Assembly (NCBI RefSeq): GCF_003917135.1
Contig: NZ_RPDI01000006.1
Coordinates: forward strand, 62,001-126,000
Reading direction: 5' to 3'
DNA: 64,000 nucleotides
From: Leucobacter chromiireducens
GTDB lineage: Bacteria; Actinomycetota; Actinomycetes; Actinomycetales; Microbacteriaceae
Made by a program: the position numbers and the translations under genes. The first letter of the stretch is position 1. Each line of letters opens with the position of its first letter. This document shows, one piece after another, positions 44,309-54,511 of the stretch. The notes under the pieces are model-generated. The model had not been told where the DNA came from, ran no database searches, and worked only from the letters and a program-made list of their open reading frames with translations.

Positions 44309-45282
44309 GCGTTCTCACCAGCGCCGGGCCGCTCACCCAGCTCGACCGGATCGAGCACCCGCGCCGCCGCGCGCTCCAGCGCCGCGACCACGTCGTGCAC
44401 CTCCTGGCGCAGCTCGCCCCTCGCGTGCAGGATGAGCAGCTGCCGCCCATCCCCCTCGCGGATCCCGAACGCGCGCACGCCGGGGTGCCGGTAGCTGAGC
44501 AGACTCAGCCGCGGCACCACCGACACGCTCATGTCGCGCGCGACGAGCTCCTGGACCACCATGTAGTCGTCGGTCGCGTGGCGGATATCGGGCACAAAGC
44601 CCTCCCGCTCAGCGATGCGCAGGAAGTGCTGCCGGCACGCCGGGCACCCCGTCACCCAGCGATCGCGCGCGTGCTCCGCGAGCTGCCGCCGCTTCGCCCC
44701 GGCCGAGCCGCGCCGCTTCGACACAATGAGCTGCAGCGGATCCCAGCCGATCGGGATCTCGACGACCTCGGCCCCGAAGTCCGGCGAGGCCTCCCCCTCG
44801 TAGCGGAAGACGAGCGCAACGTCGGCGCTGCCGCGGCGCAGCAGTTCGGGCACCGCGAACGGCTCCTGCTGCTCCAGCTCGATCGCGACGCCCGGCTCGC
44901 CGCGCCCGCCGCCCGCGGAGCCGCGCGCGAGCAGCTCGGACATGGCGGGGGCGACGATGCTCGTGCACGCCGACGGGAACGCGACCACGCGCACCGTGCG
45001 TTGCCCCTCGTCGACGATGCCGGCGACCTCGCGCGCCGCGCGCTCGAGGTGACCGTCGATGATCTCGGCGTGGTGCAGCAGCCGCCTGCCCGGCTCGGTG
45101 AGCTGCACCCCCTTCACGGTGCGCGTCACGAGCGTGACGCCGAGGCTCTCCTCGAGCCGGCGCACCTGGCTGCTGAGCGCCGGCTGGGTCCAGCCGAGCT
45201 CGCGCGCCGCCGCAGCGAACGAACCGTGCTCGGCCACCGCACGGAACGACATCAGCGCGCGAGGATCGATCCCATCAGCCAT
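44305..45282 (-). CDS. LysR-family transcriptional regulator
   Basis: The 325-residue protein has a typical LysR winged HTH at about residues 9-67 (LMSFRAVAEHGSFAAAARELGWTQPALSSQVRRLEESLG) and an effector domain with a CPACRQHFL segment, a Cys-x2-Cys pair unusual for the family. AAGGGGGAG lies just upstream of the ATG. It is 83 bp downstream of the MalY/PatB-like aminotransferase gene on the same strand, so the two may be cotranscribed. The target is not evident. Confidence 0.88.
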   Translation of the reverse strand: MADGIDPRALMSFRAVAEHGSFAAAARELGWTQPALSSQVRRLEESLGVTLVTRTVKGVQLTEPGRRLLHHAEIIDGHLERAAREVAGIVDEGQRTVRVVAFPSACTSIVAPAMSELLARGSAGGGRGEPGVAIELEQQEPFAVPELLRRGSADVALVFRYEGEASPDFGAEVVEIPIGWDPLQLIVSKRRGSAGAKRRQLAEHARDRWVTGCPACRQHFLRIAEREGFVPDIRHATDDYMVVQELVARDMSVSVVPRLSLLSYRHPGVRAFGIREGDGRQLLILHARGELRQEVHDVVAALERAAARVLDPVELGERPGAGENA

Positions 45283-45365
45283 CTCTCCCCCTTCGCACCG
45301 GGTGCTCGCGCGACCCGAGGACCGCGCTACCCGTTTCCTGCTCGGCGTGCTCCCTGCGCGGCCTG

Positions 45366-46550
45366 CTACGCCGCGCGCTTCGCTGCGGTGGCGGCAGCGA
45401 CGAGGCGCCGCACCGCCTCCATCGTATCCGCGTGCGAGAGCGCCGCGTTGAAGCGCACACTCCCGGCGCCCGCCGCGCCGCAGGATGAGCCGTCGGTCAC
45501 GACGATCTGCGCGGCCTCGCGCACCGCCTCGGCAGCGCTCTGCCCCGCCCGGATCAGGCCGGTATCGCTGAGGTCGAGCCAGAGCAGGTAGGTCGCGTCC
45601 GGCGCGATCACCCGGATCCCGGTATCGGTAGCGGTGGCGTGCAGCAGCGCGATGGCCTCGCGCACCGTGTCCCCCAACTCGGCGATGGTGCCGCGCAGCC
45701 ACTCGCGCCCCTCCGTGTACGCCGCGGTCGTCGCGACGACGCCGAGCACGGCGGTCTGGTGCTCGTGCCAGTGCCCCACCCGGCGCCACGCGGCGAGCTG
45801 CTCCGGGTTCGTGAAGATGAGCTGTCCGCACTTCGCCCCGGGAATGTTGAACGCCTTGGTGGCGGAGGTTGCGGTGATCGTGTGCGCCGCGGCACGCGCG
45901 GTGCGGGCGGCGTAGACGATGTGCTCGCCCGCACCGAGCACGAGCGGCGCGTGGATCTCATCGGCGAACACGATCCCGTCGAACTCGGCGACGAGCTCCT
46001 CGATCGCGGCGAGCTCCACCTCTGTTGCGACCTTGCCGATGGGGTTGTGCGGGTTGCACAGCACGATCAGCCTGGCGCCGGCCTCGAACGCGGCACGCAG
46101 CGCAGGCAGGTCGTAACGCCAGCCGGCGGTGCCGTCACGGAGCATGGGCACCTCGATGACCGGGTGTCCGATCTGCTGCGGCACCGACAGGAACGGCATG
46201 TAGCCGGGCGTCGGCACGATGATCGGCTGCCCGGCTGGCAGCAGGTGGGTGAGCACCGCCCGGAAGCCGGCGACCAGGTCGGCCACGGGGCGGATCGCGT
46301 CGGGGCTCGGCTCCCAGCCGTAGCGTTCGCGCAGCCAGTCGGCGACGACGCGCTGCAGGCGGGCGACATCGTCCTGTGCGAGGTAGCGGAGCGCGTCGGT
46401 CGCCACCGCGTCGGTCAGCGCGCGTGTGACCGCTGGCGCGCAGCCGCGCTCCATCTCGGCGAGCGGTCGGCCGAGTGGCTGCCGTGCTGCTGCTCCGGCG
46501 GTCGCTGCTCCGGCGGTTTCTGGCCCGGCGACCCCTGCTGCGATCTGCAC
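45366..46550 (-). CDS. PLP-dependent aminotransferase, MalY/PatB type
   Basis: This fold-type I PLP enzyme has 394 residues from a GTG with AAGGAG five bases upstream. Landmarks: CNPHNPIGK (Asn166), FADEIHAPL (Asp197), and SATKAFNIPG with the Schiff-base Lys232. These match the MalY/PatB cystathionine beta-lyase-like group. The N-terminus is odd: the usual PLxVADMD entry is reduced to LAEMERGCAPAV after an Ala/Gly-rich leader, and the KW-type substrate segment is absent, so either the start is misread or the enzyme has altered specificity. It is divergent from the peptide ABC operon. Confidence 0.85.
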   Translation of the reverse strand: MQIAAGVAGPETAGAATAGAAARQPLGRPLAEMERGCAPAVTRALTDAVATDALRYLAQDDVARLQRVVADWLRERYGWEPSPDAIRPVADLVAGFRAVLTHLLPAGQPIIVPTPGYMPFLSVPQQIGHPVIEVPMLRDGTAGWRYDLPALRAAFEAGARLIVLCNPHNPIGKVATEVELAAIEELVAEFDGIVFADEIHAPLVLGAGEHIVYAARTARAAAHTITATSATKAFNIPGAKCGQLIFTNPEQLAAWRRVGHWHEHQTAVLGVVATTAAYTEGREWLRGTIAELGDTVREAIALLHATATDTGIRVIAPDATYLLWLDLSDTGLIRAGQSAAEAVREAAQIVVTDGSSCGAAGAGSVRFNAALSHADTMEAVRRLVAAATAAKRAA

Positions 46551-46926
46551 CCCTGCTCCTTCGTGCTTGGCGCACCGGGTGGCGCGCACTGTTCATGCTA
46601 GGTCTGGGCGCCGGCCCGCAGCTCTTCGTTTCGGCTGGGGTGCTCTCTGTTTTCCTTGGGTCTCACGCTCCATCAAACTTGAGAAGTGGCAAACCGACGC
46701 TTCCGCCGCGCGAAGGGTGGGTTTGCCACTTCTCGATCCCGATCGAGGCGCACGTTACCTCGCAAGTCCGCGCGACTCACGCCTGAAATCACGCTCGGAT
46801 ACGCTTTCCCCGCGGGCGCCTTCACGCCCGCTGGGGCCGTCGGCCGCCAGTACACTCGATCCAGCACCCACCGCGACCGTGCGGGGGCGGGGCCAACCGG
46901 CCCCGGGCACGCAAAGGAGCGACACG
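46551..46926. other. Divergent intergenic region (376 bp)
   Basis: It separates the aminotransferase gene from the peptide-type ABC operon. No gene is seen. It holds promoters for both sides and, at 46681-46734, one copy of a 54-bp palindromic element. The rest is less GC-rich than the flanking genes around 46620-46690. Confidence 0.7.
46681..46734. repeat. 54-bp palindromic element, copy 1
   Basis: Two 23-bp arms (46681-46703 and 46712-46734), matching at 21 of 23 positions, flank an 8-bp loop. The arms contain the core GTGGCAAACCGAC. The same 23-8-23 element recurs at 53254-53307, on the other side of the ABC/C39 operon. It sits in a divergent promoter region, 192 bp before the binding protein ATG, so it is not placed as a terminator. 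Confidence 0.9.
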
Positions 46927-48555
46927 ATGCACACACCACTCACCCGAGCAGGCCGCCGCGGCCGCGTCCGTCTCGTCGCGGCCGCCGCCATCGCCGCCTC
47001 CCTCGCACTGGTCGGCTGCGCCGGCGGCGGCGGGGCCGCCGAGCAGGCGCCCGTCGAGCTCGTCGACACCGGCGCGGAACTCGACCAGGTCACCGTTGCG
47101 TTCCCCGGCTCGCTGGCGAACCTCTATATCGGCCAGGAAAGCGGCATCCTGAACTACAACCTCGCCGCCACCGTGCAGGAGGGCCTCGTCACCCAGGACG
47201 CGAGCGGCGCGGTCGTGCCGGCGCTCGCCGAGTCGTGGGAGACCCCGGACGACACCACCTACGTGTTCACGCTGCGCGAGGACGCGAAGTTCCAGAACGG
47301 CGACCCGGTCACCCCTGAGGACGTGGTGTTCAGCCTGCAGCGCGCCCAGGATCCCGAGCTCTCCCCCGGCATCTCCTACTACCTCGCGAACCTCGCCTCG
47401 GCCGAGAAGACCGGCGACCGCGAGGTCACGGTGAAGAGCTCCGCGCCCGACGCCACCTTCCTCGTCAACCTCTCCAACTCCGGCGCCCTCGTGGTGACCC
47501 AGCAGAAGTTCTGGGAGGAGCACGCCGGCAAGGTGGGCACGAGCTCGTCGCTGCTCATGGGCACCGGCCCGTACCAGGTGACCGAGTTCCAGCCGGACTC
47601 GCACGTGCTGCTCGAGCGCGTCGACACCTGGTGGGGTGGCGTACCGAAGGCGAAGACCATCCGCGTGAACTTCATCCCGGACGCCAACACCCGCCTCGCG
47701 GCGGCGCAGAAGGGCGACATCGACATCGCGTTCAACGTGCCGATCAACCAGGCGGCCGAGTGGCAGAAGATCAGCGACATGCGCGTCGAGTCGATGAACG
47801 ACCTCTCCTACGTCGGCCTGCTGTTCGACGAGCGCGTCGCCCCCTTCGACGATCCGAAGGTGCGCGAGGCCATCGCGCTGAGCATCGACCGCGCCGCGAT
47901 CGCGGAGAAGCTCCTCCGCGGCTACGGTGAGGCCGCCACCGCGATCATGACGCCCGAGTCGCTCGCGCAGGCCTTCGACGGCGACGCGGCACGCGCCGAG
48001 CTCGCGAAGATCCCGCAGCACGAGTTCGACCTCGACGCGGCGAAGCAGCTCATCGGCGAGACCGACGCCGCCGACCTCACGACCGAGCTCACCTACCCGA
48101 ACACGGGGCCGCAGCTCGGGATCGCGGCGCAGGCGATCGCCGAGAACCTCGACAAGATCGGGATCACGGTGAAGGTGCGCGAGGTGCCCATCGAGGAGTG
48201 GCTCGCAACCATCGGTGACGGCGAGCACGGCCTCGGCTTCATGTGGTACTTCTCGACGACCGGCGACCCCGCCGAGGTGAACGGCTACCTCCTGGGCGCC
48301 GGCAACCCGAACGGCTTCGAGAGCGAGGAGGCCGTCGCGCTCATCGCGGAGGCGAACGCGCTCACGGACCCCGAGGAGCGCGCCGCGAAGCTGATCGAGC
48401 TCGAGACGCTGAACGCGGAGAACGTGGTCAACGCCCCGATCTGGTGGGGCAAGTCGGTCACGGCATTCTCGAACGGCGTTGGGCTCGCCGACTACGGCCC
48501 TTACACCTTCACGGGGGCGTGGGGCGCGCAGATGTTCGCCGCCGAGGCGAAGTAG
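46927..48555 (+). CDS. Peptide-type ABC transporter substrate-binding lipoprotein (SBP family 5)
   Basis: The 542-residue lipoprotein (lipobox ALVGC, Cys31) belongs to the DppA/OppA/NikA family. Typical segments are VTVAFPGSLANLYIG, TYVFTLREDAKFQNGDPVTPEDVVFSLQR (about 110-140) and GTGPYQVTEF. An AAAGGAG RBS precedes the ATG at 46927. It heads a five-gene unit with two permeases, a fused ATPase and a C39-like enzyme. Ligand is likely an oligopeptide or similar; glutathione, nickel chelates or opines are possible in this family. Confidence 0.9.
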   Translation: MHTPLTRAGRRGRVRLVAAAAIAASLALVGCAGGGGAAEQAPVELVDTGAELDQVTVAFPGSLANLYIGQESGILNYNLAATVQEGLVTQDASGAVVPALAESWETPDDTTYVFTLREDAKFQNGDPVTPEDVVFSLQRAQDPELSPGISYYLANLASAEKTGDREVTVKSSAPDATFLVNLSNSGALVVTQQKFWEEHAGKVGTSSSLLMGTGPYQVTEFQPDSHVLLERVDTWWGGVPKAKTIRVNFIPDANTRLAAAQKGDIDIAFNVPINQAAEWQKISDMRVESMNDLSYVGLLFDERVAPFDDPKVREAIALSIDRAAIAEKLLRGYGEAATAIMTPESLAQAFDGDAARAELAKIPQHEFDLDAAKQLIGETDAADLTTELTYPNTGPQLGIAAQAIAENLDKIGITVKVREVPIEEWLATIGDGEHGLGFMWYFSTTGDPAEVNGYLLGAGNPNGFESEEAVALIAEANALTDPEERAAKLIELETLNAENVVNAPIWWGKSVTAFSNGVGLADYGPYTFTGAWGAQMFAAEAK

Positions 48556-48563
48556 TTCCCACC

Positions 48564-49553
48564 GTGTCCACCACCCGAGCAGGCGGCGCCCCGGGCGGGC
48601 GCCGCCTGGCCCGCACGCTGACGCTGCGCATCGGCGGGGTGCTCGTCATCCTGCTGGTGCTCTCGTTCCTCACCTTCACGCTGCTGTACCTCGCGCCGGG
48701 CGATCTCGTGAAGAACCTGCTCGGCAACCGGCCGAGCTCCCCCGAGGCCATCGCGGCGATCCGCGCGCAGTACCACCTCGACGACCCGTTCCTCGTGCGC
48801 TACGTCGACTGGCTGTGGAGCGCCGTGCGCGGCGACTTCGGGGAGTCGATCCGGCTGCAGCAGCCCGTCACCGCGGTCATCGGCTCGCGGCTCGGGATCA
48901 CGTCGCTGCTGATCGGCCTGTCGTTCGTGCTCGCGCTCATCACGGCGGTGCCGCTCGGCATCGTGAGCGCGGCGCGCGCCGGCACCCCCGTCGACCGCGT
49001 CGCGAGCGCCACGGCACTCTTCGGCCTCTCCGCGCCGAGCTTCGCCCTCGCGATCCTCGCCATCACGGTGTTCGCGATCGCGATCCCGATCTTCCCGGCT
49101 TACGGCGCCGGCGATGGTCCGCTCGATCAGCTCTGGCACCTCTTCCTGCCCGCGGCGGTGCTCGCGGCGGGCATCGGTGCGATCCTCATGCGCATGACCC
49201 GCGCGGCGGTGCTCCGCGAGCTCGAGAGCGACGCGATCACGTTCGCGCGTGCGCGCGGGATCCCCGAGCTGCGGGTGCGGCGCATCGCGCTGCGCGCGGC
49301 CCTGATCCCGATCGTCACGAGTGCCGGGCTGATTCTCACGTTCATTATCGGCGGCACGATCATCGTCGAGACGGTCTTCGCGCTGCCCGGGATCGGCCAG
49401 CTGCTGCAGGAGGCGGTGCTGTTCAAGGACCTGCCGGTGGTGCAGGCGATCACCCTCCTCGTCGCGGCCGCGATCGCGATCATCACCATCCTCGTGGACA
49501 TGAGCTACCTGCTGCTCGATCCGCGCGTCCGAGCACGGGAGCTGAGCGCATGA
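48564..49553 (+). CDS. Peptide-type ABC transporter permease (DppB-like)
   Basis: The 329-residue permease has six membrane helices and the DppB-type N-terminal FTLLYLAPGDLVKNLLG segment. The cytoplasmic EAA-like loop is ITFARARGIPELRVRRIALRAALIPI. It starts at a GTG 8 bp after the binding protein gene and overlaps the next permease by four bases (ATGA). Confidence 0.92.
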   Translation: MSTTRAGGAPGGRRLARTLTLRIGGVLVILLVLSFLTFTLLYLAPGDLVKNLLGNRPSSPEAIAAIRAQYHLDDPFLVRYVDWLWSAVRGDFGESIRLQQPVTAVIGSRLGITSLLIGLSFVLALITAVPLGIVSAARAGTPVDRVASATALFGLSAPSFALAILAITVFAIAIPIFPAYGAGDGPLDQLWHLFLPAAVLAAGIGAILMRMTRAAVLRELESDAITFARARGIPELRVRRIALRAALIPIVTSAGLILTFIIGGTIIVETVFALPGIGQLLQEAVLFKDLPVVQAITLLVAAAIAIITILVDMSYLLLDPRVRARELSA

Positions 49554-50416
49554 CCCCGCGTACCCGCCAAGTGTCCCTGCTCAACGACGTGCGCGTCGCG
49601 CCGGGCCGGCCCCGCGACTGGGTGGCCACCGTGGCCGCCGTGTTCCTCGGCCTCGTGGTGCTCGCCGCGATCGCTTCCCCGTTCCTCACCGAGCTCGCCA
49701 CGGAGCAGAGCATCCTCGACTCGCTGCTCCCCGCCGGCTCCCCCGGGCACCTGCTCGGCACCGACGAGCTCGGGCGCGACGTGCTGCTACTCACCCTCGC
49801 CGGCACGGGTTCCGCGGTCGCCGGCCCGCTCGTGATCGCGGCGGGATCCATGCTCCTCGCGATCCTCATCGGCACCGCGGCCGGCTACCTCCGCGGCCCC
49901 GTCGACTGGATCGTCGGCCGCATCGTCGACATTCTGCTGTCGCTGCCCGTGATGCTCGTCGCCCTCGTGGTCGCCGGTATCTTCGGGGCCGGCTACTGGG
50001 TGACCGTGATCATGCTCGTGCTGCTGTTTAGCCCGTCGGACATCCGGATCATTCGCGCCGGCGTGACCGAGCAGGCGCCGCGGCCCTACATCGAGGCCGC
50101 GCAGATGCTGTCGCTGTCGCCGGGGCGCATCATGTTCAAGCACATCGTGCCGAACGTGTGGCCACTCATCATGACGAACTTCATGCTCAACCTCGCGATC
50201 GCGCTCGTGACGCTGTCCTCGCTGTCGTTCCTCGGCATCGGCGTCGCGCCTGGCACCCCCGACTGGGGCCGACAGATCACCGACGGCCGCGGCATCCTCG
50301 GCGACAACCCGGCGATGATGGTGGTACCCGCGATCCTCATCGTGCTCGTCGCGATGGCCATCAACGTGCTCGGCGATCATCTCGGCGAGCGACTCCGCGA
50401 ACGGGGGATGCAGTGA
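49550..50416 (+). CDS. Peptide-type ABC transporter permease (DppC-like)
   Basis: The 288-residue permease has the DppC-type opening (HLLGTDELGRDVL, about 66-78) and EAA loop YIEAAQMLSLSPGRIMFKHIVPNVWPLI. It pairs with the DppB-like permease upstream. Its stop overlaps the ATPase GTG start. Confidence 0.92.
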   Translation: MTPRTRQVSLLNDVRVAPGRPRDWVATVAAVFLGLVVLAAIASPFLTELATEQSILDSLLPAGSPGHLLGTDELGRDVLLLTLAGTGSAVAGPLVIAAGSMLLAILIGTAAGYLRGPVDWIVGRIVDILLSLPVMLVALVVAGIFGAGYWVTVIMLVLLFSPSDIRIIRAGVTEQAPRPYIEAAQMLSLSPGRIMFKHIVPNVWPLIMTNFMLNLAIALVTLSSLSFLGIGVAPGTPDWGRQITDGRGILGDNPAMMVVPAILIVLVAMAINVLGDHLGERLRERGMQ

Positions 50417-52071
50417 TCACGTCTGCTGACACACAGCTCGACAGCCGGGGCACCGCGCCGGGGGTGTCGGTCTCGGGGCTCCGCGTCGTCGCGGGCGAGC
50501 GCACGCTCGTGGCTCCCGTCGACTTCTCGGTCGCGCCTGGCGAGCTGCTCGCCGTGATCGGCGAATCCGGATCGGGGAAGTCGATGACCGCGCGCGCCCT
50601 CACGGGCCTCCTCCCCCGCGGCGTCCACGCGACGGGCGATGCGCGCATCGACGACCACGCGTACGACCTGGCCTCCGGGCGCGACGCGGACTGGGCCGCC
50701 GTGCGCGGCCGGCGTGCCGTGTTGCTGCTGCAGGATCCGTTCACGAGTCTCAGCCCCGTGCTGCGCTGCGGCGCGCAGATCGCCGACACGATCGAGGCGC
50801 GCGCCGCGGCGACCGGGCAGCGGCTCGCGGCGACTGCCGTGCGCGCGGAGGTGCTGCGCCGCCTCGCCGAGGTGCGCCTGCCCGAGCGGGTGGCGCGGCA
50901 GTACCCCAGCGAGCTCTCCGGCGGCATGCGGCAGCGCGTCGCCATCGCCGCGGCGCTTGCCGCCGACCCGCGCCTCCTCATCGCCGACGAGCCGACCACC
51001 GCGCTCGACGCGAGCACGCAGGGCGAGGTGCTCGACCTGCTCCGCGAACTGCAGCTCGCGCACCAGATGAGCCTCATCCTGATCAGCCATGACCTCGGCG
51101 TCATCGAGGGGCGTGCCGACCGCGTGCTCGTGATGCGGCACGGCGAGGTCGTCGAGCGCGGCGACACCGCCGCGGTGCTGCGCGCCCCCGAGCACCCGTA
51201 CACGCGCCAGCTGATCGCGGCGAACCTGTCGGTCTCGGATGATCTGCGCGAGCCGAGCGAGCGGCCCGCGCCGCTGCTCGAGGCCGAGCACCTGTCCAAG
51301 CGCTTCGGCGCGACGACCGCGCTCGCCGACGCGACCGTGTCCGTCGCGGCGGGTGAGGTGCTCGCGATCGTCGGGGAATCCGGATCGGGGAAGACCACGC
51401 TTGCCCGCGCGATCGCCGGCCTCGAACGACCCGACACGGGCGAGGTGCGGCTTGCGGGGCGCACGCTGCCGCCCGGGCGCCGCGGGCGCACCCCCGGCGA
51501 GATCCAGGTCGTGTTCCAGGATCCGTACTCGACGCTGAACCCCGTGTTCACCATTCGCGAGTCGCTCGACGAGGCACTGCGGGCCGGCGGGCGGGGCGCT
51601 GGCCGGGCACAGGCTGGCGGGCAGGGCGCGCGCAGCGTCGACGAACTGCTGCGGCTCGTCGAGCTCGATCCCGCGCTCGCCGATCGCCGGCCGGCGCAGC
51701 TCTCGGGCGGGCAGCGGCAGCGCGTCGCGATCGCCCGCGCACTCGCCCCCAACCCGCAGGTGCTGATCTGCGACGAGAGCGTCTCGGCGCTCGACGTCTC
51801 CGTGCAGGCCCAGATCCTCGGGCTGCTCGCCCGCCTGCGCGATGAGCTGCAGCTCGCCATGCTCTTCATCACGCACGACCTCGGCGTCGTCGCGCGCATC
51901 GCCGACCGCATCACCGTGCTGCGGCTCGGTGAGATCGTCGAGCAGGGCGACACCGGCAGCGTGCTACGCGCACCACAGCACCCGTACACGCAGCTGCTCG
52001 TCGCGGCTGCGGAGCGCGACAGCATCGCGCGCGGGCACGACGAATCACTTCCACGAGAGGAGCGGGCATGA
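50413..52071 (+). CDS. Peptide-type ABC transporter ATPase (DppD-DppF fusion)
   Basis: The 552-residue protein contains two complete ABC domains: Walker A GESGSGKSM and GESGSGKTT, signatures LSGGMRQR and LSGGQRQR, Walker B LLIADEPTTALD and VLICDESVSALD (Ser replaces Pro after the catalytic Glu, common in this family). Both sites look functional. The fused form resembles GsiA/YejF-type ATPases. A Gly/Arg/Ala-rich insertion (GGRGAGRAQAGGQGARS) interrupts the second domain before its signature. Confidence 0.92.
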   Translation: MITSADTQLDSRGTAPGVSVSGLRVVAGERTLVAPVDFSVAPGELLAVIGESGSGKSMTARALTGLLPRGVHATGDARIDDHAYDLASGRDADWAAVRGRRAVLLLQDPFTSLSPVLRCGAQIADTIEARAAATGQRLAATAVRAEVLRRLAEVRLPERVARQYPSELSGGMRQRVAIAAALAADPRLLIADEPTTALDASTQGEVLDLLRELQLAHQMSLILISHDLGVIEGRADRVLVMRHGEVVERGDTAAVLRAPEHPYTRQLIAANLSVSDDLREPSERPAPLLEAEHLSKRFGATTALADATVSVAAGEVLAIVGESGSGKTTLARAIAGLERPDTGEVRLAGRTLPPGRRGRTPGEIQVVFQDPYSTLNPVFTIRESLDEALRAGGRGAGRAQAGGQGARSVDELLRLVELDPALADRRPAQLSGGQRQRVAIARALAPNPQVLICDESVSALDVSVQAQILGLLARLRDELQLAMLFITHDLGVVARIADRITVLRLGEIVEQGDTGSVLRAPQHPYTQLLVAAAERDSIARGHDESLPREERA

Positions 52072-53219
52072 CCGCCGCAACGCACGATTTCACCCTCGAC
52101 GCGCAGCCGGGGGCGCAGCTCCCCGACGAGCTTCGCGATTCTCTCCCGGCCGCGCGCGCGGCACTCTGGGACGTGGAGCGCGAGCTCTGGACTCCGCGCA
52201 CCGTCACCGCCCGCGATCGATCGGGATCGGTGCTCGGCGCCGCGCTCACCGCGGCCCGGCCCTTCTCCGCGTATCGCAAGATCGTGGATGTGGTCGCTGG
52301 GAGCGGTGAGGTGTGGGCTGCGCTCGTCGCCGCCGCGCGCGATGACCGTGCCGACGCGCCGGGCACCGAGGAGCATCCCGCGCCGATCGCCGTGCACTTC
52401 GAGGAGCACCTCACCGTCGCCCCGCTGACCGAGGCGCAGCGCTCAGCGCTCGGTCCCGCGGGCTTCGCCCGCGCGGCCACCCCGGTGCCGTCGGTGCCGA
52501 GCACCCGGCAGGATGACGAGCACGGCGTGGCCGCGTGGTCGTTCTGGCGTGTGCCAGCGCCCGCGCGCACCGCGCCGTACTACGGGCAGACCACCGACGT
52601 GACGTGCGGCGCGGTGGCGGCGCTCACCGCGCTCGAGCAGCGCGGCCTCGGCGAGTTCCGCGCCGACGATGGGGCAGAGAACCGGGCGGCGGAGATCGCG
52701 TTCTGGCGCCGCGCGACGAACCTCCCGGCGTGCGAGCCGATCGGGCTCGCGGTCGAAACCGCGAAGCTCGGCGCGGACTCGGGCACGCTCGCCGCCCGCC
52801 CCCGCGTCTTCCTGAGCACCCCCGACCCGGTGTTCATCGAGGAGTTCTCCGAGCAGCCCTGGGAGCAGGAACTCCGCATCGACCTGCAGCGCGAGTCGCT
52901 GCGGCAGGCTGAGGCCCTCGGCTTGCCGCTCGAGCGGCGCTGGCTCGAGGTCGAGGAGATCGTCGACGCGGTGCGCGGCGGCGCGCAGGTGCTGCTGCTC
53001 ATCGACCTCACCGAGCTCATCGCGGACCCGACGCCGCACTGGGTGCTCGCCACCGAGGTGGTGGGCGAGACGTTGCTCATCGCCGACCCGTGGGTGCAGG
53101 CGCCGAACGGCGAGACCTGGGTGGACACGTTCGCCCTCCCGCTGCCGTTCGCGACGATCGACCGCATCACGCGCTGGGGCACCCCGGCGTTCCGGGGCGC
53201 GATCATCCTCGAGCCCTAG
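52068..53219 (+). CDS. GNAT-like / peptidase C39-like fusion protein
   Basis: The 383-residue protein is coupled to the ATPase gene by an ATGA overlap with GAGAGGAG upstream. Residues 170-383 form a C39-like (DUF3335-type) cysteine peptidase domain: Gln174 and Cys180 in YYGQTTDVTCGAV, His324 in TPHWVLATE and Asp340 in LLIADPW make a complete papain-like site. The first 165 residues resemble a worn GNAT acyltransferase fold (for example LTEAQRSALGPAGF) without a clear acetyl-CoA loop. There is no signal peptide or membrane helix, so it acts in the cytoplasm, probably on the imported compound. Confidence 0.78.
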   Translation: MTAATHDFTLDAQPGAQLPDELRDSLPAARAALWDVERELWTPRTVTARDRSGSVLGAALTAARPFSAYRKIVDVVAGSGEVWAALVAAARDDRADAPGTEEHPAPIAVHFEEHLTVAPLTEAQRSALGPAGFARAATPVPSVPSTRQDDEHGVAAWSFWRVPAPARTAPYYGQTTDVTCGAVAALTALEQRGLGEFRADDGAENRAAEIAFWRRATNLPACEPIGLAVETAKLGADSGTLAARPRVFLSTPDPVFIEEFSEQPWEQELRIDLQRESLRQAEALGLPLERRWLEVEEIVDAVRGGAQVLLLIDLTELIADPTPHWVLATEVVGETLLIADPWVQAPNGETWVDTFALPLPFATIDRITRWGTPAFRGAIILEP

Positions 53220-53253
53220 CCCCGCGCACACGCGCCCCGCGCGGGCGGGAATC

Positions 53254-53307
53254 GAAACGTGGCAAACCGACCCTTCAGCAGCACGAAGGGTCGGTTTGCC
53301 GCTTCTC
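53254..53307. repeat. 54-bp palindromic element, copy 2
   Basis: Two 23-bp arms (53254-53276 and 53285-53307) match at 20 of 23 positions, the inner 16 perfectly, around an 8-bp loop. It shares its core with the copy at 46681. It lies between two convergent stops (53219 and 53334), where it could also serve as a bidirectional terminator. Confidence 0.9.
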
Positions 53308-53333
53308 AGATGAAGTGAGCAGGAAAGAGCAAG

Positions 53334-53966
53334 CTAGTAGAGGAGGAACTGGGCCGTGCCCGTGCCCTGCGCGCCCGCGGCGGACACCCGCAGGTGGTAG
53401 GACGCGCCGCCTGCGCCCACCGGGTCGCGCGTGATGTCGCAGGTCTCCGTGCTGGAGCGCGTGCGATCCCAGGTGATCGGCTCGGTCTCGAGCGGCTTGC
53501 CTGGCTCCAAGATCACCGCGAGCGACTCCGCGCCCGTCTGGCAGTCCGTGGAACGCCACACCTCGTCGTCGCCACTCGAAATCGCGAACTCCATGCCGGC
53601 GGTGCCGAGATCGGCCGTGCAGGCCTCCTCGCCCGTGTTCTCCGCGGACAGCGAGAGCGCGGGCAGCTCACCCGCCGGGTAGTCACCGCGATCCGTGACC
53701 GGCGTGATCTTCAGCTGGCCGGCGCGGCACGCCGCGGGACCGTCCGTCTCGTCGGCGGCGTCGCCGGCACCCTCGCTCGGGGTGGTGTCGATCCCCTCGG
53801 GCACCTCGACCTGTGCCACGTCCTTCGGCCCATCGCCGCTGCCCGGCTTCACGATCACGAGCACAATCACCGCGATCACCGCGAGCAGGCCGAGCAGCAC
53901 GAACAGTCGCCGCCGAATGTAGACCTTGCGGTCTTTCGGCCCGACCGGATCGCGAAGGGTGGACAT
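53334..53966 (-). CDS. Membrane-anchored extracytoplasmic protein, unknown function
   Basis: The 210-residue product has a short cytoplasmic head, one membrane helix (about 20-41, RLFVLLGLLAVIAVIVLVIV), an acidic Thr/Glu/Asp linker (about 55-78), and an outside beta-rich domain with cysteines in ACRAG, EEACTADLG, STDCQTG and ETCDITR, likely forming two disulfides. The pattern (a GxYPAGELPALSLSAENTG strand) resembles actinobacterial DUF4232-like or Ig-like sensor domains, but I cannot assign a family. It precedes the ArgA-like gene's end by 26 bp on the same strand. Confidence 0.7.
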   Translation of the reverse strand: MSTLRDPVGPKDRKVYIRRRLFVLLGLLAVIAVIVLVIVKPGSGDGPKDVAQVEVPEGIDTTPSEGAGDAADETDGPAACRAGQLKITPVTDRGDYPAGELPALSLSAENTGEEACTADLGTAGMEFAISSGDDEVWRSTDCQTGAESLAVILEPGKPLETEPITWDRTRSSTETCDITRDPVGAGGASYHLRVSAAGAQGTGTAQFLLY

Positions 53967-53992
53967 GGCGCCAGCGTAGCCCGGAAAGTGGG

Positions 53993-54511
53993 TTACAGCC
54001 GCTTCAACATGCGCGTGTTGCCGAGGGTGTTCGGCTTCACGCGCGCGAGGTCGAGGAACTCGGCGACGCCCTCGTCGTTCGAGCGCAGCAGCTCGGCATA
54101 CACGTCGGCGGCAACGAGCTCCGTGTTCTCGGCCATCTCCTCGAAGCCGTGCCGCCCGAAGAAGTCGGTCTCGAAGGTGAGGCAGAACAGCTGCGTGAGG
54201 CCGAGCTGCCGCGCGCGATCCTCCAGGGCGGTGATGAGCCGGTGGCCAACGCCGTGGCCGAGCCACTCCTCGGAGACACCGAGCGTGCGCACCTCCCCCA
54301 GCTGCTCCCACATCACGTGCACGGCGCCGTAGCCGACGAGGGTGCCGTGCTGATCCTCCGCGATGAGAAACTCGGGCACGGCAGCGTACAGGTCGACGAG
54401 ATCCTTCCCAAGCAGGATCCTTCGCGCCACCAGGGGCTCCATCAACTCGACCATGCGGAGCACGTCGCCCGTGCGCGCATTGCGGATGCGAATCTCAGCA
54501 GACACACTCAT
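53993..54511 (-). CDS. argA: Amino-acid N-acetyltransferase, short ArgA-type GNAT
   Basis: This is a 172-residue single GNAT domain. The acetyl-CoA binding segment is GVSEEWLGHGVGHRLITALED (about 78-98), followed by LFCLTFETDFFGRHGFEEM, which matches the stand-alone N-acetylglutamate synthases of actinobacteria (as in mycobacterial ArgA). It would supply N-acetylglutamate for arginine synthesis. The gene symbol is assigned by this similarity; other arg genes are not in the window. It lies just beyond the clpC terminator. Confidence 0.8.
   Translation of the reverse strand: MSVSAEIRIRNARTGDVLRMVELMEPLVARRILLGKDLVDLYAAVPEFLIAEDQHGTLVGYGAVHVMWEQLGEVRTLGVSEEWLGHGVGHRLITALEDRARQLGLTQLFCLTFETDFFGRHGFEEMAENTELVAADVYAELLRSNDEGVAEFLDLARVKPNTLGNTRMLKRL

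Follow-up and report, generated by a model that had tools for sequence, protein, structure and literature searches.

Among described dispersed palindromes of bacterial genomes, the closest to those reported here are the repetitive extragenic palindromic (REP) sequences, whose doublets (REPINs) are linked to REP-associated tyrosine transposases (RAYTs) in the account given by Bertels and Rainey (2011, PMC3116915), and the CGTC-tagged REPs, dispersed palindromes apparently without a dedicated transposase, whose hosts, as named in the parts of Di Nocera et al. (2013, PMC3733652) drawn on here, are Proteobacteria, Chlorobi, Bacteroidetes, Spirochaetes and Thermotogae. We analyzed a stretch of 64,000 nt from Leucobacter chromiireducens, hereafter the window, in which two 54-bp palindromes lie on either side of an operon for a peptide-type ATP-binding cassette (ABC) transporter and a C39-peptidase-like protein. 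Among the titles and abstract openings searched, no report on such palindromes in Leucobacter or Microbacteriaceae was on point.

We consider it probable, at roughly 60%, that these elements are REP-like interspersed extragenic palindromes without a RAYT, tolerated or co-opted as two-way 3′-end hairpins. They resemble the REP/REPIN-RAYT systems in being short extragenic palindromes with tens of copies, several families per genome and a presumably non-autonomous spread. They differ from those systems in that each forms a single long palindrome and not a REP doublet, in their C-rich and G-rich flanks, in the want of a GTAG tag in the family to which the two copies belong (family A), and in the transposase: a search for Y1 transposases of the RAYT/IS200 type (PF01797, E <= 0.001) found none in 54 Leucobacter genomes, the source genome included, with controls matching in 5 of 14. 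With the CGTC-tagged REPs, as far as these are described in the parts of PMC3733652 drawn on here, they share dispersal and the apparent absence of a dedicated transposase, but family A has no CGTC tag and its host is an actinobacterium. Because family A lacks the tags and the genome lacks a detectable RAYT, we do not file these families as members of the REP/RAYT group.

A dispersed family of 54-bp palindromes

Both palindromes consist of two 23-nt arms around an 8-nt loop and lie where a sequence-only reading of the window had placed them:

46681..46734, no strand: family A palindrome copy 1 (23-8-23), between the divergent aminotransferase and solute-binding protein genes
53254..53307, no strand: family A palindrome copy 2 (23-8-23), between the convergent C39-like gene and the gene at 53334-53966

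The arms of copy 1 occupy 46681-46703 and 46712-46734, and this copy ends 192 nt upstream of the first operon gene (46927); those of copy 2 occupy 53254-53276 and 53285-53307, and it starts 34 nt past the end of the last gene (53219). Complementarity of the arms is imperfect (87% for the 23-nt arms of copy 2, with mismatched pairs in copy 1 as well), and the DNA folding z-scores against shuffles are -7.4 and -7.1. A half-site search of the window, allowing up to 3 mismatches, returned four matches, namely the four arms of the two copies (shuffled mean, 0.02); the claim that the window holds no third copy is borne out. No Rfam family matched in the window at gathering scores, and a promoter scan gave no match.

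The source genome (own genome, or G000) is a 93-contig draft of 3.2 Mb, which was compared with others on the basis of one genome per species. At up to 3 mismatches it contains 43 half-sites. Nineteen palindromes, spread over 15 contigs and each having an 8-nt loop, account for 38 of these; the remaining 5 are unpaired and each carry 3 mismatches. Seventeen copies therefore lie outside the window. Half-site matches at this threshold occur in 53 of 54 Leucobacter genomes, with 0-9 in each of the others and up to 11 for a reversed-pattern control, so that only the own genome exceeds the control level; family A appears absent from the other 53, as judged from these per-genome counts and from a paired-motif search in 10 Leucobacter genomes. 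The count that the sequence-only reading had called for thus gave 19 copies in the sole genome standing out among 54. The motif pair GTGGCAAA...TTTGCCAC was found in 4 of 398 genomes of the host's bacterial family (10 of the 398 being Leucobacter). The own genome has 15 copies, G380 has 5, G054 has 2 and G410 has 1; the cores in the latter three differ from that of the own genome. A perfect consensus A element had no match in a scan of genome contigs, a weak result since near records may be omitted there. Spread by phage was considered and set aside: exact family A and B patterns had no match in viral contigs.

Many family A copies lie near gene 3′ ends. Eighteen of the 19 are extragenic and one (in L033) touches a called gene end; including the latter, 9 lie between convergent genes, 6 between tandem genes and 2 between divergent genes, and 2 have no called neighbor on one side. 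Convergent placement of 9 of the 17 copies with two neighbors, as scored with gene calls from a home-made caller, is an excess because convergent space makes up only 11.7% of intergenic bases (642 kb sampled; p=4e-5); against the 18% of intergenic spaces that are convergent, p=0.001. Of the 32 proteins neighboring the 17 outside copies, 30 were scanned, a low-scoring open reading frame in L043 and the one in L046 being left out; 28 had Pfam matches, several of them to housekeeping enzymes, and argH-, purL-, ruvC- and Iso_dh-type genes were among them (16 of the 17 copies covered). One neighbor of a divergent copy (L034:6409-7758) encodes a protein with ricin-type beta-trefoil lectin domains.

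Two further families and their shared flanks

A scan for long palindromes over the family A loci and a further 400 kb yielded at least two other repeated families, family B, built on GGGGTCACTnnGGCAGGGTGTCG, and family C, built on CGGAGAAATCnnnnnTnTCGG. Their copy numbers were estimated from half-site counts with at most 1 mismatch. Family B has 36 and 37 half-sites on the two strands of the own genome (about 37 copies) and 27 and 27 in L. chromiireducens L-1, 1-7 in four other Leucobacter genomes, and none in 48 of the 54. Family C half-sites number 43/44 (own genome), 43/38 (G029) and 5/6 (G007); 13 further genomes have 1-2, and 38 of the 54 have none. The own genome is thus home to at least three REP-like families, with roughly 100 copies. 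All sampled copies of B (8) and C (7) lie between genes. Clustering of palindromes by shared 10-mers was also tried and merged families (clusters of 51 in G000 and 17 in G001); it was not used for counts.

A common feature of the three families is found beside the hairpin. In a sample of 34 copies (19 A, 8 B and 7 C), the left flank is C-rich and the right flank G-rich over about 40 nt, in all three families, with a median skew of 0.25, versus 0.025 for 33 palindromes of the same genome that match no family pattern (p=1.5e-7). An outer 14-mer recurs in the sample for 1 of these 33. Four-G-run motifs on the strand 3′ of the hairpin occur in 28 of 68 family flanks; the opposite strand has them in 2 of 68, and the flanks of the other palindromes in 1 of 66. 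For an enlarged set of 38 C copies the corresponding counts on the two strands are 22/76 and 4/76. The family flanks are internally repetitive as well, with a 6-mer repetition of 6.9 versus 2.7 when shuffled; that of the other palindromes is 1.3 versus 0.9. The median skew is weakest in family A (0.19 versus 0.375 for B and C) and small in copy 1 (0.17 left, -0.07 right). By site comparison family A would be the youngest family, and its weak skew, together with the little seen in copy 1, hints that the tracts may grow after insertion.

Other palindromes were observed alongside these families. Two 20-kb stretches of the Leucobacter genome G001 (L191 and L192) hold at least 5 B-like palindromes of the GGATCCGGGTCGCTCCGGCAGGGTGCGCG type, and another B-like variant is present in G008; outside Leucobacter the B core pair was found once each in 4 of 388 genomes of the bacterial family, with a different inner sequence. 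G029 contains three copies of a further family consisting of CGACTTTGATCCGGTAT and a mirrored arm (L147:1-43, L154:7105-7149 and L155:150-192). Genome G380, from another genus of the same bacterial family, has its own dispersed palindrome clusters (L159-L178), with cores like GTTGAGGGGCGGCGAACGCAGCC and ATCGAGTCGGGG. At the end of one contig of the own genome (L242:1560-1800, G000:C17) a C palindrome arm and its flank are repeated beside an N, probably an assembly duplication.

Sites in relatives and conservation of the hairpin

The genes around the two palindromes are as follows, and their Pfam matches (SBP_bac_5, two BPD_transp_1, a double ABC ATPase and DUF3335) agree with the peptide-ABC/C39-like operon that had been described from the sequence:

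45366..46454, minus strand: class I/II aminotransferase, left of copy 1 (PF00155); its open frame starts at 46589
46927..48555, plus strand: peptide-type solute-binding protein, operon gene 1 (PF00496, SBP_bac_5)
48564..49553, plus strand: ABC permease 1 (PF00528, BPD_transp_1; PF19300)
49550..50416, plus strand: ABC permease 2 (PF00528, BPD_transp_1)
50413..52071, plus strand: fused double ABC ATPase (PF00005 in two stretches; PF08352)
52068..53219, plus strand: C39-peptidase-like protein, last operon gene (PF11814, DUF3335)
53334..53966, minus strand: convergent neighbor of copy 2 (no Pfam match)

Relatives of the C39-like gene were found in five Leucobacter loci and in no other genomes, and these five relatives carry the operon. 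Paired A half-sites were not found in their operon loci (about 17 kb each), even with up to 5 mismatches allowed in each half. At the site of copy 1, the window has 86-89 nt and three loci (L054, L055 and L058, from two subspecies of L. chromiireducens and strain PH1c) have only 14-17 nt, about 72 bp fewer, with conserved sequence on both sides. Copy 2 occupies what, judging from the alignments, is a variable junction among relatives: L054 aligns across it without a palindrome, L. luti has a 22-nt gap, and L055 and L058 have other DNA (1.0 kb in PH1c and 5.0 kb in L. chromiireducens L-1) downstream of the C39-like gene and before the convergent neighbor, neither locus having the palindrome. 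On the simplest reading, the palindromes would have been gained around an operon already in place. Three relatives show strong conservation of a block next to copy 1 (46599-46660, around CTAGGTCTGGGCGCC and GCTCTTCGTTTCGGCTGGGGTGCTC), possibly a promoter or operator sequence.

We also compared sites in two sister species, G007 and G029, limiting the comparison to sites with both flanks locatable in the relative. Neither relative had family A at any compared site (2 comparisons with G007 and 3 with G029, over 4 sites), and no strong palindrome stood in its place. At the G007 counterpart (L081) of the A copy in L045, an unrelated strong hairpin occupies the site. Family B was present at 8 of 9 orthologous sites in G007 and 0 of 4 in G029; for family C, G029 had 18 of 18 and G007 had 2 of 3. 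The high counts are inflated, since many of the regions had been retrieved for the copies in them. Among orthologous copies of equal core length, those of unequal length being dropped, arm identity was 91% for B (7 pairs) and 83% for C (14 pairs), values partly built in because the copies had been found by arm patterns; loop identity was 40% and 48%, and that of the 40-nt flanks, compared ungapped, 49% and 36%. Arm positions changed on both sides numbered 8 in B and 23 in C, with pairing preserved at 5 and 8 of them. Of 20 family B copies whose arms both match at 0 mismatches, 14 have arms that agree in the two variable letters, where 3.4 would be expected. In family A, 98% of core cells are paired, three core pairs are changed on both sides, and the covariation score is 0.119 versus 0.072 when shuffled, a value reached by none of 500 shuffles. 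We read these comparisons as suggesting that the hairpin is kept in place while the loop and flanks drift; an alternative origin of the same pattern is correction of one arm from the other. One B palindrome common to the own genome and G007 has a single mismatch on opposite arms, as if the core had flipped:

L036:8250-8850 (own genome) and L119:18100-18800 (G007): B palindrome with the opposite-arm mismatch

A proposed mechanism and its alternatives

We propose that a trans-acting mobilizer, other than a recognizable Y1/RAYT transposase, would add copies to intergenic DNA. After insertion the core would be kept as a hairpin, with conserved arms and some compensatory changes, and the loop and flanks would turn over. 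Near gene ends, chiefly between convergent genes, a copy most likely acts on transcripts from both sides: each transcript would run through a C-rich stretch (possible Rho loading), then the hairpin (pausing and 3′-end protection) and then G-rich DNA, a layout that would suit Rho-linked ending and 3′ protection of RNA arriving from either direction. A surplus of C over G, seen on either strand within about 40 nt, may be pertinent to Rho. A broader version of this proposal, which we put forward only tentatively, is that the families represent a new class of palindrome, with unrelated cores in one architecture (a C-rich tract, a 54-80-bp palindrome and a G-rich tract), spread by a mechanism other than HUH/Y1; pairing selection would keep the core, and the hypervariable repetitive flanks would grow G-quadruplex-prone DNA 3′ on both strands, making each copy a two-way terminator or a barrier to transcription collision.

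Several observations weigh against REP-like palindromes co-opted as 3′-end hairpins, in addition to the home-made gene calls, the choice of regions and the arm-based retrieval given with the counts above. No mobilizer was identified in a search that covered the Y1 type only; within 12 nt outside the stem, on either strand, the GTAG tag was found at 1 of 19 family A copies and CGTC at none; and by eye no target-site duplication was recognized at the copy 1 junctions on comparison with the relatives. An intrinsic-terminator scan of 45000-54500 found none, and the 8 nt past the stem contain on average 4.0 T, a weak tract (19 A copies, both sides). Sampled B copies show no convergent enrichment (2/8 convergent, 3/8 divergent). 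The four G029 sites without B come from stretches chosen without regard to that family. In G029, family C flanks have four-G-run motifs at 3/68 on the 3′ strand and 0/68 on the opposite strand, and the palindrome clusters of G380 lack G-run motifs and are only weakly skewed in their flanks. As to pairing, only 8 of the 23 doubly changed C positions (B, 5 of 8) are paired in both species, and one-sided arm changes are commoner (C, 33; B, 12); arm agreement in family C is weak, at 0.56 within versus 0.46 across copies (G029, 0.49 versus 0.44). Family A pairs changed on both sides show no excess over shuffles (6 versus 5.3; 219/500). The suggestion of a REP-like or mobile small palindrome, made in the sequence-only reading, is borne out as to kind by the dispersed hairpin family and the empty site in relatives; the linked RAYT-like transposase was not found.

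That the palindromes are instead ordinary bidirectional terminators, alike through gene conversion or shared descent and without mobility, seems to us unlikely. Like bidirectional intrinsic or Rho-dependent terminators, the copies often place a hairpin 20-60 nt past stop codons, often between convergent genes (9/17 of A; 6/7 of sampled C), with C-rich sequence upstream on both strands. Retention of C between G000 and G029 at 18/18 testable loci, in regions partly chosen for C, also fits this explanation, as does the unrelated hairpin at L081. Against it, the core sequence is repeated and conserved, the T tract is not strong, the sample includes copies between divergent genes (2 of A, 3 of B and 1 of C), the C/G flanks are not common to other hairpins of the same genome, and copy 1 adds about 72 bp to a site that is otherwise conserved. 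Copy 1 itself, between divergent genes and with no intrinsic terminator detected, is no simple terminator, as the sequence-only reading had held.

Binding sites for a chromosome-organizing or supercoiling protein, kept where convergent transcription piles up supercoils, are an improbable explanation. Gyrase acts at the bacterial interspersed mosaic elements (BIMEs) of Escherichia coli, which serve as a model here, and the convergent enrichment of A, the two-fold symmetry and the conservation in place of B and C cores are what such sites would show. However, compensatory changes favor strand pairing over a fixed double-stranded recognition sequence, one genome holds several unrelated cores, and a candidate protein is lacking. 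An insulating binding site, suggested earlier for the operon, may be a function of the element, which is not specific to the peptide-ABC operon.

Less probable still is a miniature inverted-repeat transposable element (MITE) derived from a classical DDE insertion sequence, with two terminal inverted repeats back to back. The elements are short, dispersed and symmetric, as small inverted-repeat elements of this kind are, and copy 1 has an empty site, but no target-site duplication was recognized by eye there. No parent insertion sequence with the same ends was seen, and no transposase was found among the 30 proteins flanking family A copies (DDE transposases not being searched genome-wide). Nor was a lone half-site found that could terminate a full-length element: the A half-sites with at most 2 mismatches, 38 in number, are all paired, the lone-looking B half-sites that were fetched all proved to be paired, and the only exact C half-site of the sample without a partner belongs to the duplicated stretch next to an N, close to the end of a contig. 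Finally, that the palindromes bound a movable peptide-ABC/C39 cassette is scarcely credible: the two copies bracket the operon closely and the copy 2 site is a variable junction, but five Leucobacter loci hold the operon without A palindromes, 17 further copies lie elsewhere, and random placement of 19 copies on 3.2 Mb gives at least one pair this close in 51% of trials. On our reading the two copies are independent members of family A and not a pair.

A link to a Y1 transposase marks the REP systems that are best known. The Leucobacter palindromes, several REP-like families in a genus where no such enzyme was detected, raise the question of how short palindromes spread without one. REP-like palindromes of presumably different age in one genus, A seen in one species and B and C common to sister species, offer a relative time series of this process. 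U-tract terminators are scarce in high-GC actinobacteria, and the layout of C-rich tract, hairpin and G-rich tract provides a testable model of two-way transcript ending in these organisms.

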